From Aceticella autotrophica (GTDB taxonomy: Bacteria > Bacillota > Thermoanaerobacteria > Thermoanaerobacterales > Thermoanaerobacteraceae): a DNA stretch of 64,000 nucleotides. The notes beneath the pieces were generated by a model that did no database searches, was not told the DNA's origin, and saw only the letters and a program-made list of their open reading frames with translations. How positions within the stretch are numbered: position 1 is the stretch's first letter; each line of letters opens with the position of its first letter. The stretch spans positions 372,001 to 436,000 of the forward strand of contig NZ_CP060096.1 of assembly GCF_017357865.1 (NCBI RefSeq), given 5' to 3'. Below are positions 22,820 through 43,405 of this stretch, piece after piece. The translations under genes were made by a program, and so were the position numbers.

Positions 22820-22848
22820 TTGACAAATTGCAAAATCATATGTATAAT
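22820..22848 (+). promoter_or_regulatory. Consensus promoter of the first ammonium transporter gene
   Basis: TTGACA (22820) and TATAAT (22843) with exactly 17 bp between them match the consensus fully. Such a strong promoter implies that control lies elsewhere, namely at the leader terminator that follows. Confidence 0.85.
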
Positions 22849-22875
22849 GTAAATAAATAAAAATTGAATAAAAAA

Positions 22876-22934
22876 GAGCAAAGGCGCTCTAACATACAGG
22901 TTTGACCTGTATAGTTGGGGTGCCTATTTTTTTT
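22876..22934 (+). promoter_or_regulatory. Leader terminator with overlapping hexaloop hairpin (candidate ANTAR antiterminator)
   Basis: GAGC, hexaloop AAAGGC, GCTC (22876-22889) forms a small hairpin. Its loop and right arm are the left arm of a long terminator stem (22882-22925, tip ATACAGG/CCTGTAT) ending in eight T (22927-22934). The two folds exclude each other. ANTAR-domain antiterminators are known to bind hexaloops with A at position 1 and G at position 4, as here. The known sites use two such hairpins; I see only one. Confidence 0.65.
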
Positions 22935-22951
22935 ACAAGGAGGTAATAAAT

Positions 22952-24277
22952 TTGGAAAAAAGACATCTTATTCCTGCAATTATTCTACTAACGATTTTAA
23001 TTCCAAATGTTGTATATGCTGCAGGAGGCAATATTGATACAGGTGATACAGCATTTATACTTTTTGCATCGGCGTTGGTTATGGTTATGACACCGGGTCT
23101 TGCATTTTTCTATGGAGGGATGGTAAGCCGGAAAAATGTTATAAGCATTATGATGCAAAGCATTATGATAATAGCGATTGTTTCATTACAGTGGGTATTA
23201 TTTGGTTTTTCACTTTCATTTAGTGGAGATATTGGTCATATAATAGGTAATCTAAAATGGATTGGATTAAGCAATATAGGCTCTGGACCTGATGGTGCAT
23301 ATTCATCAACAATACCGCTTATGGCTTTTATGGTATATCAATTAATGTTTGCGATTATTACGCCGGCACTTATTACAGGTGCTTTTGCAGAAAGAATGAA
23401 ATTTGGAGCATTTCTTGTATTTGTTCTTTTATGGACAACATTAGTTTATGACCCGCTTGCACACTGGGTATGGGGCAATGGCGGATGGCTTAAAGAATTA
23501 GGAGCACTTGATTTTGCAGGAGGTACTGTTGTACACATAAGTTCAGGTGTTTCAGGACTTGTTGCGGCAATTATGCTTGGTAAGAGAAAAAATATGAGGA
23601 TGATGCCGCATCATATGCCAATGGTTATACTTGGAACCTCGATTTTGTGGTTTGGCTGGTTTGGTTTTAATGCAGGCAGTGCTTTATCTGCAAGTGGTCT
23701 TGCGGTTAATGCATTTGTAGTTACAAATACTGCTGCAGCAGCTGCTGCGATAGGATGGGTACTTATTGAATGGAAAATAAATGGCAAACCAACATTATTG
23801 GGAGCTGCCAGTGGGGCTGTAGCCGGTCTTGTTGCTATTACTCCGGCATCCGGCTATGTAACAGCAGTATCAGCAATTATGATAGGTTTGTTATCCGGTA
23901 TGATATGCTACTTCTCAGTGAATTATATCAAGCATAAATTTGGATATGATGATTCACTGGATGCTTTTGGTATACATGGTGTTGGTGGAACATGGGGAGC
24001 TTTTGCAACAGGATTATTTGCTTCGAAAGCCGTCAATCCGGCTGGAGCAAATGGATTATTCTATGGAAACTTTAATCAGGTTATAATACAAATAATAAGT
24101 ATAGCAGCCACATATATATTTGCAGGTCTTATGTCATTTATAATTCTTAAATTTATAAGCCTCTTTACAGATTTAAGGGTAAGTGAAGAGGAAGAAGAGG
24201 CTGGTCTTGATATATCGCAGCATGGTGAAGAGGCTTATAAAATAGGGTTTAATATAGTAGATTTTAATCAAATGTAA
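22952..24277 (+). CDS. amt: Ammonium transporter (Amt family)
   Basis: 441 residues, TTG start after ACAAGGAGG. A signal-like N-terminus is followed by 11 membrane segments. Conserved blocks are FFYGGMVSRKNVISIMMQS, QWVLFGFSL, ITPALITGAFAERMKF, HWVWG, GGTVVHISSGVSGL, GTSILWFGWFGFNAGSAL and HGVGGTWGA, including the twin His region of the pore. It imports ammonium under nitrogen limitation. Expression appears gated by the terminator in its leader. It is the first of two Amt paralogues here. Confidence 0.95.
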   Translation: MEKRHLIPAIILLTILIPNVVYAAGGNIDTGDTAFILFASALVMVMTPGLAFFYGGMVSRKNVISIMMQSIMIIAIVSLQWVLFGFSLSFSGDIGHIIGNLKWIGLSNIGSGPDGAYSSTIPLMAFMVYQLMFAIITPALITGAFAERMKFGAFLVFVLLWTTLVYDPLAHWVWGNGGWLKELGALDFAGGTVVHISSGVSGLVAAIMLGKRKNMRMMPHHMPMVILGTSILWFGWFGFNAGSALSASGLAVNAFVVTNTAAAAAAIGWVLIEWKINGKPTLLGAASGAVAGLVAITPASGYVTAVSAIMIGLLSGMICYFSVNYIKHKFGYDDSLDAFGIHGVGGTWGAFATGLFASKAVNPAGANGLFYGNFNQVIIQIISIAATYIFAGLMSFIILKFISLFTDLRVSEEEEEAGLDISQHGEEAYKIGFNIVDFNQM

Positions 24278-24303
24278 AATAATAAAGATTTTTATAAGAT
24301 TTT

Positions 24304-24352
24304 AAAAAGCAAAGGTGCTTTATTCTCCAGAATAAAGCACCTTATTTATTTA
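24304..24352 (+). promoter_or_regulatory. Second leader terminator with the same hexaloop hairpin
   Basis: AAAGC, hexaloop AAAGGT, GCTTT (24306-24321) overlaps the left arm of a perfect 15-bp terminator stem (24312-24326 with 24329-24343) followed by ATTTATTT. The loop has A1 and G4 and differs from the first amt leader only at its last base. The stems differ in sequence, so the shared loop looks like a binding determinant. It would gate entry into the second transporter and PII genes. Confidence 0.65.
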
Positions 24353-24374
24353 ATTGAAAGGGGGTGATGATAAA

Positions 24375-24638
24375 ATGACAAAAATATCCATATACATTTT
24401 ATACACCATAAACACAATTATTATATTTTTAGGTTTCTTCTTTACACTATACAGCATCATAACTCATAATACAATGATAATTATCGGTAGACGATTTCCT
24501 GCTTTTATCATGGGGTTACCGGTAATTTACTTCAGCATTATTTACTTTGTAAAGATAAAAAGATTATCAAAGGAAATAGCTTCAAAACAATTTTCAATTA
24601 GCAATTTTAATATTGGTAAAAGATTAAGAGTAAAATAA
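24375..24638 (+). CDS. Small membrane protein in the ammonium cluster
   Basis: 87 residues from the ATG at 24375 (GAAAGGGGGTGATGAT upstream). There are two hydrophobic segments (IYILYTINTIIIFLGFFFTL and FIMGLPVIYFSIIYFVKI), then a basic tail ending KRLRVK. I do not recognise the family. It lies between the two transporters, 16 bp before the second, behind the gated leader. It may be a small accessory subunit, but nothing in its sequence shows this. Confidence 0.65.
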   Translation: MTKISIYILYTINTIIIFLGFFFTLYSIITHNTMIIIGRRFPAFIMGLPVIYFSIIYFVKIKRLSKEIASKQFSISNFNIGKRLRVK

Positions 24639-24654: not shown

Positions 24655-26585
<1,931 letters not shown>

Positions 26586-39103: not shown

Positions 39104-39293
39104 AGATATGTCTAAAATTACTGCTGCTGAACGCAGATATTACGATTCCGTTGTTCAAGCAGCGTTAATTAAAAGCGGTGGAAAATCTTTTAATAATAGC
39201 AAAAACATTAAAATTGTAGAAGATTTGTTGGCAGATAAAGACATTCAAAATAGACCGGAAAGAACATTATCTGGTTATGAAAAAGCAAAAAAA
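39104..39293 (+). pseudogene. Fragment of the cassette 6 secreted protein gene
   Basis: The frame MSKITAAERRYYDSVVQAAL to IVEDLLADKDIQNRPERT matches residues about 58-115 of the gene at 44598 (MTAAERKYYDSVVQTALIKS), about 85 percent identical. There is no signal peptide or leader. It is cut at its 3' end by the MITE-like element. It preserves the unshifted reading frame of this family. Confidence 0.8.
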
Positions 39294-39541
39294 GGGGACG
39301 TACCTTATTTGTCAACTTTATCACACTAACAACTAAAGATAGTGTATATATCGTTACAATATAGCCATGCTTAACATTTTGCTATTATTTCTAAGAAAGC
39401 TTCCCACTTTTTTCAATCTCTCAAATTGAAAACCTCTTGCTTTTAATGCTTAATAATTTTATTTCTTTTTGATTTTGTTACTAACTTTATAAAATAAATT
39501 TTCAATTTGCTTGTGAAAAGTGACAATCCGGGTACGTCCCC
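39294..39541. mobile_element. MITE-like element, about 248 bp
   Basis: Ends are imperfect inverted repeats. The left is GGGGACGTACCTTATTTGTC (39294); the right, read in reverse, is GGGGACGTACCCGGATTGTC, with further similarity (ACTTT/ACTTTT). There is no coding capacity inside. It interrupts the cassette gene fragment. Target duplication is not clear because both flanks are A-rich. Confidence 0.55.
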
Positions 39542-39584
39542 AAAATGTCCAAAAAATGTCCAATAGCGTAAGTAAACCACCTAG

Positions 39585-41492
39585 GAGTCCACTCGGAATC
39601 ATCAATCATAAATTAACAAATATGTTATTGAAAGCCATATAATTTACAAAAAAAATACTCCTAAACACACACGAAATAAGCACTTAAGAGGTATTTTTTA
39701 TGGTATAATATAAATAATATAAAAAAATGTGGTGATAAAAATGATAGGAAAAGCAGATAGACAAATGTCATTTTCAGATTATTGGTTACTTGGGAAAATT
39801 TCTGAAGTAAGTTATTATCATAGATTAAGAACATGGGTATTTAATAATCTTAATGAAGAAATGTTTCAGCCACTTTTCTCATACTATGGCAGAGAATCCA
39901 TATCCCCAGTATATACATTTACAGCGATGCTGATACAATTTGAAAAAGGATATTCTGATCGTGAAATGGAAGAAGAATCACGATTCGATGATAGAATTAA
40001 ATATGCATTAACCGCACCACGGGATTTTGATGGAATAGATGCAGTAACATTATGTGATCATAGAAAAAGACTGTTTAACAGTGAAATAGGAAAAGAAATA
40101 TTTATTAAAACAATTAGTCAGGCAAAAGAAGTAGGACTGTTTAATAAAGACAACTTACATATAATAGATTCATTCATGATTTGGGGCTCTTGTGCCAGAC
40201 AAGATACTTACACTATGATATACCAAGGGATAAAGATGGTTCTCCGTTTCATGAAGTTTTACGAAATGGAAGATGCATCAAAAAAAATACTGAAAAGAAC
40301 AGATTATGAAGAAAATATCAAAAAACCCAAAATAGCATGGGAAAATGAAAAAGAAAAAGCAAAATTACTCGAAGAACTTGTTAAAGATGCACTATCACTC
40401 GTAGAAAATATAAAAACAAAAAAAGATATAAAAGATGATTTAAAAAAAGCAATTGAATTATTAGAAAGAATAGCATTACAAGATGTTGAAATAACAAACG
40501 ATGGGCATGTAAAAATGATAAAAGGAACAGCGAAAGACAGAATAATATCAGTAGTAGATGACGAAATGCGCCATGGTAGAAAGACCTCATCGAAATTATC
40601 AGATGGATACAAAGCTGAAATTATAACAGGAGGAGAAAAAGGCTCAGTAGTAGTAGGAATAGAAGTCGATGGAGCAAATATAGCAGATGGTGAACATATG
40701 AGTGATCTTATAGAACAAAGCCGAAGAAACGGCGTTGATATAGATAAACTGTATGGAGATTGTGCATATAGTGACTTTGAAGAAATAGAAAAAAGGAAAG
40801 AAGAAGGAACAGATTTTTGCATTAGAGTACCGGAAGCAACAAATCCAAGTGGAGGATTTTCAAAAGAAGAATTCAAAATTGATTTAGAAAAAGGAACAGT
40901 AGAATGTCCCAACGGACACATAAAACAATTTGATACTGAAAAAACGCAAAAACATGAGCAAGTTACAGTAAAATTTAGAGCAGAAGAATGTAATGATTGT
41001 CCGCTAAAAGACCAATGTACAAAATCAAAAAAAGGGAGAACAATAAATATACATCCATATGAAAAAGAGATACAAGAACAAAGAGAATATCAAAAAACAG
41101 ATGAATTTAAAGAAGACTATGCAAAAAGACCGAATGTAGAAAGAAACATATCAGAACTTACCAGGCATGGCGGACGTAAAGGAAGGTATAGAGGGAAATT
41201 AAAAATAAGATGGCAAATGATAATGGTAGCAATAAACAATAATATCAAAGTAATAATGAAACATATTTCTAAAATTTGTAATAGACAAATTAAGAAGGGA
41301 GAAGTCTGCCCAAAAACGGCTTAAAGAATAGTTAATGAGATTAAAAATAGCAATAACAGATCAATAAAGCAGAACATACATATTAAAATCAATAACAAAG
41401 TCATATATATTTAGTTAAATAGAGATTATTCTGATAATTTTTGTGATGATAAAAATTTTTAACCTGTAGATAAGCTCTTTCCGAGTGGACTC
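39585..41492 (+). mobile_element. IS1182-like insertion sequence, copy 1
   Basis: 1908 bp. Terminal inverted repeat GAGTCCACTCGGAA at 39585, with its complement ending at 41492. CTAG flanks it on both sides (39581-39584 and 41493-41496), the palindromic 4-bp duplication often seen with this family. It is complete and separated from copy 2 only by the shared CTAG. Confidence 0.92.
39741..41324 (+). CDS. IS1182 family transposase
   Basis: 527 residues from the ATG at 39741 (TGTGGTGATAAAA upstream). The N-terminal DUF772 region (SPVYTFTAMLIQFEKGYSDREM and the preceding RLRTWVFNN) is followed by a DDE domain with IDSFMIWGSCARQD, GDCAYSDFEE and NISELTRHGGRKGRYRGKLK. A cysteine cluster (CNDCPLKDQC) lies before the last catalytic Glu region. 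Undamaged and probably active, since a near-identical copy lies next to it. Confidence 0.95.
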   Translation: MIGKADRQMSFSDYWLLGKISEVSYYHRLRTWVFNNLNEEMFQPLFSYYGRESISPVYTFTAMLIQFEKGYSDREMEEESRFDDRIKYALTAPRDFDGIDAVTLCDHRKRLFNSEIGKEIFIKTISQAKEVGLFNKDNLHIIDSFMIWGSCARQDTYTMIYQGIKMVLRFMKFYEMEDASKKILKRTDYEENIKKPKIAWENEKEKAKLLEELVKDALSLVENIKTKKDIKDDLKKAIELLERIALQDVEITNDGHVKMIKGTAKDRIISVVDDEMRHGRKTSSKLSDGYKAEIITGGEKGSVVVGIEVDGANIADGEHMSDLIEQSRRNGVDIDKLYGDCAYSDFEEIEKRKEEGTDFCIRVPEATNPSGGFSKEEFKIDLEKGTVECPNGHIKQFDTEKTQKHEQVTVKFRAEECNDCPLKDQCTKSKKGRTINIHPYEKEIQEQREYQKTDEFKEDYAKRPNVERNISELTRHGGRKGRYRGKLKIRWQMIMVAINNNIKVIMKHISKICNRQIKKGEVCPKTA

Positions 41493-41496
41493 CTAG

Positions 41497-43405
41497 GAGT
41501 CCACTCGGAATCATCAATCATAAATTAACAAATATGTTATTGAAAGCCATATAATTTACAAAAAAAATACTCCTAAACACACACGAAATAAGCACTTAAG
41601 AGGTATTTTTTATGGTATAATATAAACAATATAAAAAAAATGTGGTGATAAAAATGATAGGAAAAGCAGATAGACAAATGTCATTTTCAGATTATTGGTT
41701 ACTTGGGAAAATTTCTGAAGTAAGTTATTATCATAGATTAAGAACATGGGTATTTAATAATCTTAATGAAGAAATGTTTCAGCCACTTTTCTCATACTAT
41801 GGCAGAGAATCCATATCCCCAGTATATACATTTACAGCGATGCTGATACAATTTGAAAAAGGATATTCTGATCGTGAAATGGAAGAAGAATCACGATTCG
41901 ATGATAGAATTAAATATGCATTAACCGCACCACGGGATTTTGATGGAATAGATGCAGTAACATTATGTGATCATAGAAAAAGACTGTTTAACAGTGAAAT
42001 AGGAAAAGAAATATTTATTAAAACAATTAGTCAGGCAAAAGAAGTAGGACTGTTTAATAAAGACAACTTACATATAATAGATTCATTCATGATTTGGGGC
42101 TCTTGTGCCAGACAAGATACTTACACTATGATATACCAAGGGATAAAGATGGTTCTCCGTTTCATGAAGTTTTACGAAATGGAAGATGCATCAAAAAAAA
42201 TACTGAAAAGAACAGATTATGAAGAAAATATCAAAAAACCCAAAATAGCATGGGAAAATGAAAAAGAAAAAGCAAAATTACTCGAAGAACTTGTTAAAGA
42301 TGCACTATCACTCGTAGAAAATATAAAAACAAAAAAAGATATAAAAGATGATTTAAAAAAAGCAATTGAATTATTAGAAAGAGTAGCATTACAAGATGTT
42401 GAAATAACAAACGATGGGCATGTAAAAATGATAGAAGGAACAGCGAAAGACAGAATAATATCAGTAGTAGATGACGAAATGCGCCATGGGAGAAAGACCT
42501 CATCGAAATTATCAGATGGATACAAAGCTGAAATTATAACAGGAGGAGAAAAAGGCTCAGTAGTAGTAGGAATAGAAGTCGATGGAGCAAATATAGCAGA
42601 TGGTGAACATATGAGTGATCTTATAGAACAAAGCCGAAGAAACGGCGTTGATATAGATAAACTGTATGGAGATTGTGCATATAGTGACTTTGAAGAAATA
42701 GAAAAAAGGAAAGAAGAAGGAACAGATTTTTGCATTAGAGTACCGGAAGCAACAAATCCAAGTGGAGGATTTTCAAAAGAAGAATTCAAAATTGATTTAG
42801 AAAAAGGAACAGTAGAATGTCCCAACGGACACATAAAACAATTTGATACTGAAAAAACGCAAAAACATGAGCAAGTTACAGTAAAATTTAGAGCAGAAGA
42901 ATGTAATGATTGTCCGCTAAAAGACCAATGTACAAAATCAAAAAAAGGGAGAACAATAAATATACATCCATATGAAAAAGAGATACAAGAACAAAGAGAA
43001 TATCAAAAAACAGATGAATTTAAAGAAGACTATGCAAAAAGACCGAATGTAGAAAGAAACATATCAGAACTTACCAGGCATGGCGGACGTAAAGGAAGGT
43101 ATAGAGGGAAATTAAAAATAAGATGGCAAATGATAATGGTAGCAATAAACAATAATATCAAAGTAATAATGAAACATATTTCTAAAATTTGTAATAGACA
43201 AATTAAGAAGGGAGAAGTCTGCCCAAAAACGGCTTAAAGAATGGTTAATGAGATTAAAAATAGCAATAACAGATCAATAAAGCAGAACATACATATTAAA
43301 ATCAATAACAAAGTCATATATATTTAGTTAAATAGAGATTATTCTGATAATTTTTGTGATGATAAAAATTTTTAACCTGTAGATAAGCTCTTTCCGAGTG
43401 GACTC
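41497..43405 (+). mobile_element. IS1182-like insertion sequence, copy 2 (tandem)
   Basis: 1909 bp, same orientation, same 14-bp ends, CTAG at 41493-41496 and 43406-43409. It differs from copy 1 by only a handful of bases (for example one extra A before the gene, and single changes near 42380, 42433 and 42489). Insertion of one copy at the CTAG duplicated by the other explains the arrangement. Confidence 0.92.
41654..43237 (+). CDS. IS1182 family transposase (second copy)
   Basis: 527 residues, differing from the first copy at two positions I can see: ERIALQ to ERVALQ and MIKGTAK to MIEGTAK. All catalytic and cysteine motifs are kept. The same start logic applies, with ATG at 41654. The pair forms a composite tandem that could mobilise or amplify neighbouring DNA, although nothing lies between the copies except CTAG. 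Confidence 0.95.
   Translation: MIGKADRQMSFSDYWLLGKISEVSYYHRLRTWVFNNLNEEMFQPLFSYYGRESISPVYTFTAMLIQFEKGYSDREMEEESRFDDRIKYALTAPRDFDGIDAVTLCDHRKRLFNSEIGKEIFIKTISQAKEVGLFNKDNLHIIDSFMIWGSCARQDTYTMIYQGIKMVLRFMKFYEMEDASKKILKRTDYEENIKKPKIAWENEKEKAKLLEELVKDALSLVENIKTKKDIKDDLKKAIELLERVALQDVEITNDGHVKMIEGTAKDRIISVVDDEMRHGRKTSSKLSDGYKAEIITGGEKGSVVVGIEVDGANIADGEHMSDLIEQSRRNGVDIDKLYGDCAYSDFEEIEKRKEEGTDFCIRVPEATNPSGGFSKEEFKIDLEKGTVECPNGHIKQFDTEKTQKHEQVTVKFRAEECNDCPLKDQCTKSKKGRTINIHPYEKEIQEQREYQKTDEFKEDYAKRPNVERNISELTRHGGRKGRYRGKLKIRWQMIMVAINNNIKVIMKHISKICNRQIKKGEVCPKTA

Follow-up and report, generated by a model that had tools for sequence, protein, structure and literature searches.

The window, a 64,000-nt stretch of the complete 2.27 Mb genome of Aceticella autotrophica, encodes two ammonium transporters, AmtB1 and AmtB2, whose genes are separated by a small membrane-protein open reading frame (ORF) and followed by a P-II nitrogen regulatory protein gene, presumed to be the final gene of the amtB1-amtB2 operon (Table 1). 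No Pfam family was found for the 94-aa product of the intervening ORF, and sequence similar to this ORF occurs upstream of amtB2 in Thermoanaerobacterium-like genomes. The sigma-70-type promoter of amtB1 is a perfect match, with the -35 element TTGACA at 22820-22825 and TATAAT at 22843-22848 separated by a 17-nt spacer. Transcription would be expected to start near 22855, and about 20 nt of A-rich RNA precede the hairpin of the first leader.

Table 1 Features of the amtB1-amtB2 locus (positions within the window)
Feature	Position	Strand	Basis or remark
Sigma-70-type promoter of amtB1 (TTGACA-N17-TATAAT)	22820..22848	+	Direct reading
Single ANTAR-type hexaloop (antiterminator) AGAGC/AAAGGC/GCTCT, amtB1 leader (leader 1)	22875..22890	+	Sequence, folding, covariation
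Intrinsic terminator, amtB1 leader, ~18 bp stem then U-tract	22882..22934	+	Mutually exclusive with hexaloop hairpin
amtB1, ammonium transporter, TTG start	22952..24277	+	PF00909, 3.6e-134
Single ANTAR-type hexaloop AAAGC/AAAGGT/GCTTT between amtB1 and amtB2 (leader 2)	24306..24321	+	
Intrinsic terminator between amtB1 and amtB2	24312..24351	+	Mutually exclusive with hexaloop hairpin
Small membrane-protein ORF, 94 aa, between both amtB genes	24354..24638	+	
amtB2, ammonium transporter	24655..26226	+	PF00909, 3e-111
P-II nitrogen regulatory protein gene	26244..26585	+	PF00543, 5.1e-28

Two alternative helices in each leader

Both leaders carry a hairpin with a 5-bp stem and a six-base loop, AAAGGC or AAAGGT, and the loop and right arm of this hairpin also open a strong terminator stem. 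An earlier sequence-only reading of this DNA had described the arrangement, which is confirmed here by sequence and folding, with the coordinates given for the leader elements correct within 1-2 nt. The terminator stem of leader 1 runs from A22882/G22883 to C22924/T22925 and is followed by TATTTTTTTT, and that of leader 2 spans 24312-24343 and is followed by ATTTATTT. Because the loop and right arm are common to both helices, the hexaloop hairpin and the terminator cannot coexist. At full length, leader 1 adopts the terminator fold (-32.1 kcal/mol, z -7.4), and its 5' part, taken by itself, forms the hexaloop hairpin (-6.6 kcal/mol, z -3.4); the hairpin is favoured only as long as the 3' terminator arm is absent. 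Full-length leader 2 reaches -20.8 kcal/mol (z -4.5). When this leader is truncated the hairpin forms, but with A1 and U6 of the loop paired and at a stability no better than that of shuffled sequence (z -0.8). In general, A1 could pair with U6 in loops that end in U.

The folding of truncated leader 2, together with the intergenic position of this leader, where a plain terminator would be unsurprising, lends some weight to the view that both structures are ordinary constitutive terminators and that their hexaloops arose by chance where A-rich sequence precedes a GC-rich stem. However, of the 43 structures in the window that resemble terminators, 41 lack an A1/G4 hexaloop with a stem of 4 bp or more that overlaps the 5' arm; the two that have one are those of the leaders, and a chance hexaloop was rejected on this comparison. 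A search of the window against Rfam returned no family at gathering score, and permissive matches in both leaders were far under the cut-offs.

Elsewhere in the window, at 29147-54519, a module of ~300-400 bp recurs about ten times, imperfectly copied, each time before a different small secreted-protein gene. The module consists of an inverted repeat (GCCCACCCTTAATGCTGC..GCAGCATAAAGGGCGGGC, ending TATTTTTA), an upstream region and a ribosome-binding site, several copies are associated with the same signal peptide (MFKKIISFLLVLALLSVSSLSSAFA), and the whole resembles an array of cassettes for exported proteins that have a single promoter in common. Two copies of an insertion element adjoin the secreted-protein array at 39105-43237, where a pair of long, nearly identical repeats (39580-40020 and 41492-41933) lies around a transposase-like ORF (41642-43237).

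Conservation and extent of the switch

Homologous leaders carrying the switch were compared in 24 genomes of the order Thermoanaerobacterales, where they are found at glnA, amtB1, the amtB1-amtB2 gap, a third amtB and the large glutamine synthetase. Pairing in the hexaloop stem is 93.5% over 31 distinct sites; at four of its five pairs some sequences differ in both bases, and there are 33 double-change cells versus 12.2 in shuffles, while the closing C:G pair (C9:G16), A1, A2 and G4 are invariant at every site. The A1/G4 rule, noted originally for the two leaders of the window, holds throughout this set. The terminator helix likewise has 92 double-change cells versus 35.8 in shuffles. As both helices covary, two mutually exclusive helices must both be under selection, and the hexaloop pairing is no by-product of the terminator since its left arm sits outside it. 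The preservation of this outside arm through double changes is unexpected for constitutive terminators, as are the tracking of ANTAR genes by the motif and its location before nitrogen genes (described below), and we strongly disfavour that explanation, which we consider very improbable.

In this genome the same switch is present in the glnA-nitR leader (GAC/AAGGGT/GTC ahead of a terminator). A first covariance model, built from 40 homologous leaders of the order, recovered the three known sites of the genome together with weaker matches before nifH and glnN/GSIII, whose scores are marginal (E 0.03-1.6) and whose hexaloops are intact, and a second covariance model gave the same set of sites. 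Further copies of the motif before nitrogen genes, which had been sought as a check on the sequence-only reading, were thus found at glnA, glnN and nifH. Two other model matches in the genome, at 1298499 and 488484, were discarded as lacking an A1/G4 hexaloop. Plain sequence patterns were too unspecific to delimit the regulon, and several AAGGYGCTYTA places were not counted as attenuators. In the nifH leader (2121601-2121696; L121:302-397), a 96-bp stretch holds two complete copies of the hexaloop/terminator switch, arranged head to tail, and the third-amtB leader in relatives (L043, L044) has two full switches in series; these double switches are tandem attenuation and not the P1/P2 arrangement of known ANTAR sites. 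The motif of Thermoanaerobacterium-like genomes also precedes genes for alanine dehydrogenase, an amino-acid-type ABC binding protein and nitrogenase.

Near-identical switches (CCAAAAC/AAAGGC/GTTTTGG) were also observed in genus g7 (family f4) of the same class (L130, L131, L132, L136), preceding a gene of no assigned function and close to an oxaloacetate-decarboxylase-like gene. These genomes encode a single ANTAR gene that does not adjoin glnA. This looks like a separate ANTAR circuit lying outside plain nitrogen assimilation.

The ANTAR regulator and its co-occurrence with the motif

The absence of an ANTAR-domain protein would have refuted the reading of the leaders as ANTAR switches. A profile search (PF03861) identified exactly one in the genome (1.8e-18), a protein with a receiver (REC) and an ANTAR domain whose gene lies next to glnA, beginning 20 nt after it. 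In clostridia, glnA-nitR is a known gene arrangement like that seen here, and the protein is a NitR-like REC-ANTAR regulator of the glnA operon. We found little literature on NitR. Alignment to EutV (6WSH) extends over the full length (2.5e-22) and shows that NitR keeps the EutV hexaloop contacts R142, K143, K149, E160, Y164 and M172, with K147 replaced by R (numbering as in PMC8934654); the ANTAR domain is conserved in nine relatives. In the receiver domain of NitR (L010:9884-10456), the phospho-acceptor Asp and Lys are present and the N-terminal acidic pair reads D-S, and relatives in family f2 have the conserved Lys replaced. Given this D-S pair and the loss of Lys in f2, phosphorylation may not be the signal of NitR, which could instead respond to a protein partner. 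In Thermoanaerobacterium saccharolyticum NTOU1 (L021 5001-5562), the nitR reading frame is interrupted by what appears to be a frameshift at around codon 137 and the glnA hexaloop is intact, suggesting a sequencing error or a recent loss.

The second covariance model was also applied to 299 genomes drawn across the phylum. The motif is present in 46 of these genomes, 45 of which encode an ANTAR protein, compared with 148 of the 299 overall (Fisher 9e-15; 1.7e-12 outside the organism's own class; these p values are indicative, as the genomes were treated as independent though related). The sole motif-positive genome without ANTAR (G129) has only 2 bp beneath the loop. Across the phylum, most matches precede glnA, GSIII, amtB, P-II, glutamate synthase, asparagine synthase, glutamate dehydrogenase and nifH. 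Within the organism's own class, ANTAR is encoded in all genomes but two, the Thermoanaerobacter-like G008 and G010, which are also the only near-complete genomes of its family without a motif match. The closing pair of the glnA leader has been lost in both, via an insertion in G008, where the terminator is intact, and via substitutions in G010, where the terminator has decayed and no ORF corresponding to nitR was found downstream of glnA. Both genomes belong to one genus, and the absence of ANTAR may reflect a single loss event.

This distribution bears on the idea that the switch is real but has another operator, either a different RNA-binding protein or the RNA alone sensing a metabolite or temperature, with ANTAR merely correlated. 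A short hairpin in thermophilic organisms would be compatible with such a sensor. However, the presence of ANTAR is predictive of the motif over many families, and genomes without ANTAR show decayed hairpins. Furthermore, the loop rule and closing pair agree with the EutV structure and with SELEX data, where NasR selected a C:G closing pair together with A1/G4 (PMC7496416). An operator other than ANTAR is therefore highly unlikely.

Single hexaloops and the ANTAR attenuation model

The published ANTAR motif comprises two hairpins, P1 and P2, joined by a linker of 5-12 nt (PMC3369931). In the structural model of this system, an ANTAR dimer loads on P1 first and then passes to P2 to beat the terminator; lone hexaloops were expected only in settings free of a polymerase-imposed time limit, and their frequency was flagged for study (PMC8934654). 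We scanned the 40 nt upstream of P2 for a P1, taken as a C:G-closed hexaloop with G4, and found it at none of 49 sites of the order. Outside the class, the same scan detected P1 in 14 of 41 leaders (0.5 expected by chance), a count from which phylum matches without a 3-bp hexaloop stem (L189, L224, L238, L242, L243) were excluded. Examples of P1 elsewhere include GCAGGC/AACGGG/GCCTGC and CGCAGGC/AATGGC/GTCTGCG, both before glnA. The scan is thus able to see P1, and its result indicates that P1 is missing in the order. The sequence-only reading had noted only one hexaloop, no room for a second in leader 1 and a possible minimal form of the ANTAR site; the ~20 nt of RNA before the leader 1 hairpin, with no P1 upstream, agrees with the first two points, and the minimal form extends across the order.

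The sites could still be classical two-hairpin sites in which a degenerate P1, with a short stem, another loop size or a bulge, was overlooked. Some P1 hairpins outside the class are indeed bulged or have G at position 1 (L177, L187, L173), weak hairpins could hide in the AT-rich upstream sequence, and some Thermoanaerobacter leaders have room for one. We nevertheless regard an overlooked P1 as improbable given the strict scan and the P1 hairpins it detects elsewhere, and a relaxed search for 3-bp A1/G4 hairpins yielded 5/41 versus 5.5 expected, which is chance level. Moreover, where a good promoter was found, usually only about 10-30 nt of RNA precede the hairpin. At glnA, two promoter candidates fit equally well, one immediately before the hairpin and the other ~60 nt upstream, and we therefore do not claim that there is no room for P1 at this gene. 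Many leaders outside the class also have a single hexaloop, several with a -10 box directly before the hairpin, so single hexaloops are not confined to this order. Single and dual leaders did not differ clearly in P2 stability (medians -3.8 and -5.6 kcal/mol, respectively, from small sets), and we therefore do not claim that a stronger P2 compensates for the missing P1.

Based on these results, we propose that both leaders are very probably transcription attenuators under NitR, in which a lone hexaloop suffices without a recruiting P1 hairpin. In the default state, the short hairpin's loop and right arm would pair with downstream sequence to form the intrinsic terminator. Active NitR, presumably under nitrogen limitation judging from its target genes, would grip the single A1/G4, C:G-closed hexaloop through its ANTAR domain as it emerges, and the hairpin held in this way would block the terminator. 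RNA polymerase could then proceed into amtB1 and, beyond the second switch, on to amtB2 and glnB, with one hexaloop doing the whole job. Previous work offers points on both sides. In vitro, EutV binds isolated P1 and isolated P2 with similar affinity (PMC8934654), and NmPAL binds single hairpins (PMC10966536). Speaking against our proposal, a lone P2 is the weaker binder for NasR, at about 12 µM or ~12-fold weaker than P1P2 (PMC7496416), and in E. faecalis P1 deletion or a linker change reduced induction (PMC3369931).

NitR could also bind the hexaloop with the opposite logic, for instance promoting termination, acting chiefly on RNA stability or being titrated by terminated leaders as decoys. 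EutX/Rli55 is a known case of ANTAR sites serving as decoys (cited in PMC8934654), and short terminated leaders would abound under ammonium excess. However, the bound hairpin is a physical competitor of the terminator, so its stabilisation can only lower termination in cis, and we judge opposite logic to be quite improbable compared with antitermination by NitR.

Among known systems, the eut leaders of Enterococcus faecalis controlled by EutV/EutW similarly have an A1/G4 hexaloop with its loop and right arm inside an intrinsic terminator (PMC3369931, PMC8934654) and a REC-ANTAR regulator with the same RNA-contact residues. Unlike those leaders, which have P1 and P2 and serve ethanolamine use, the leaders described here have one hexaloop and serve nitrogen assimilation, the acidic pair of the NitR receiver is incomplete, and no kinase gene was seen beside nitR. 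The nasF leader of Klebsiella oxytoca resembles them in its C:G-closed A1/G4 hexaloop and in antitermination before nitrogen genes, but has two hairpins and a NIT-domain nitrate sensor, NasR, instead of one hairpin and a receiver (PMC7496416). ANTAR regulons predicted in other Firmicutes such as Desulfotomaculum have the same targets (amtB, glnB, glutamine/glutamate synthase and nitrogenase genes) and were found with a two-hairpin model (PMC3369931), whereas the sites here are without the first hairpin. Productive binding of an ANTAR protein to a single short hairpin, one form having a six-base loop, has a parallel in NmPAL, although those hairpins are artificial aptamers and one mined candidate and not attenuators (PMC10966536). 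With respect to the dual-hexaloop definition of 2012, the leaders have A1/G4, the C:G closing pair and the exclusivity of P2 and terminator, and lack the upstream P1; they fit the single-hexaloop redefinition of 2022 (PMC8934654). The leaders are therefore well supported as a single-hexaloop variant of ANTAR attenuation, with binding and regulation predicted. What is new here is the evidence that the attenuators of a whole regulon have one hexaloop each; no description of a single-hexaloop ANTAR regulon was found in the openly readable literature, the supplementary tables of PMC3369931 excepted.

More tentatively, the complete nitrogen regulon, comprising ammonium transport, the two glutamine synthetases and nitrogenase, might run on single-hexaloop attenuators that lack a recruiting hairpin, with a degenerate-receiver NitR sensing nitrogen via a protein partner (e.g. 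the co-encoded glutamine synthetase or P-II) rather than by phosphorylation. If so, the two-step 'recruit then transfer' model of ANTAR antitermination would not be general. A whole order with lone hexaloops directly in its attenuators provides a natural test of the role of P1, and searches based on two hairpins have probably missed much of ANTAR regulation. The compact RNA switch may also be of use for engineering at high temperature, and it would offer a simple explanation of how nitrogen genes, including those for nitrogenase, are controlled in industrially interesting thermophilic anaerobes.
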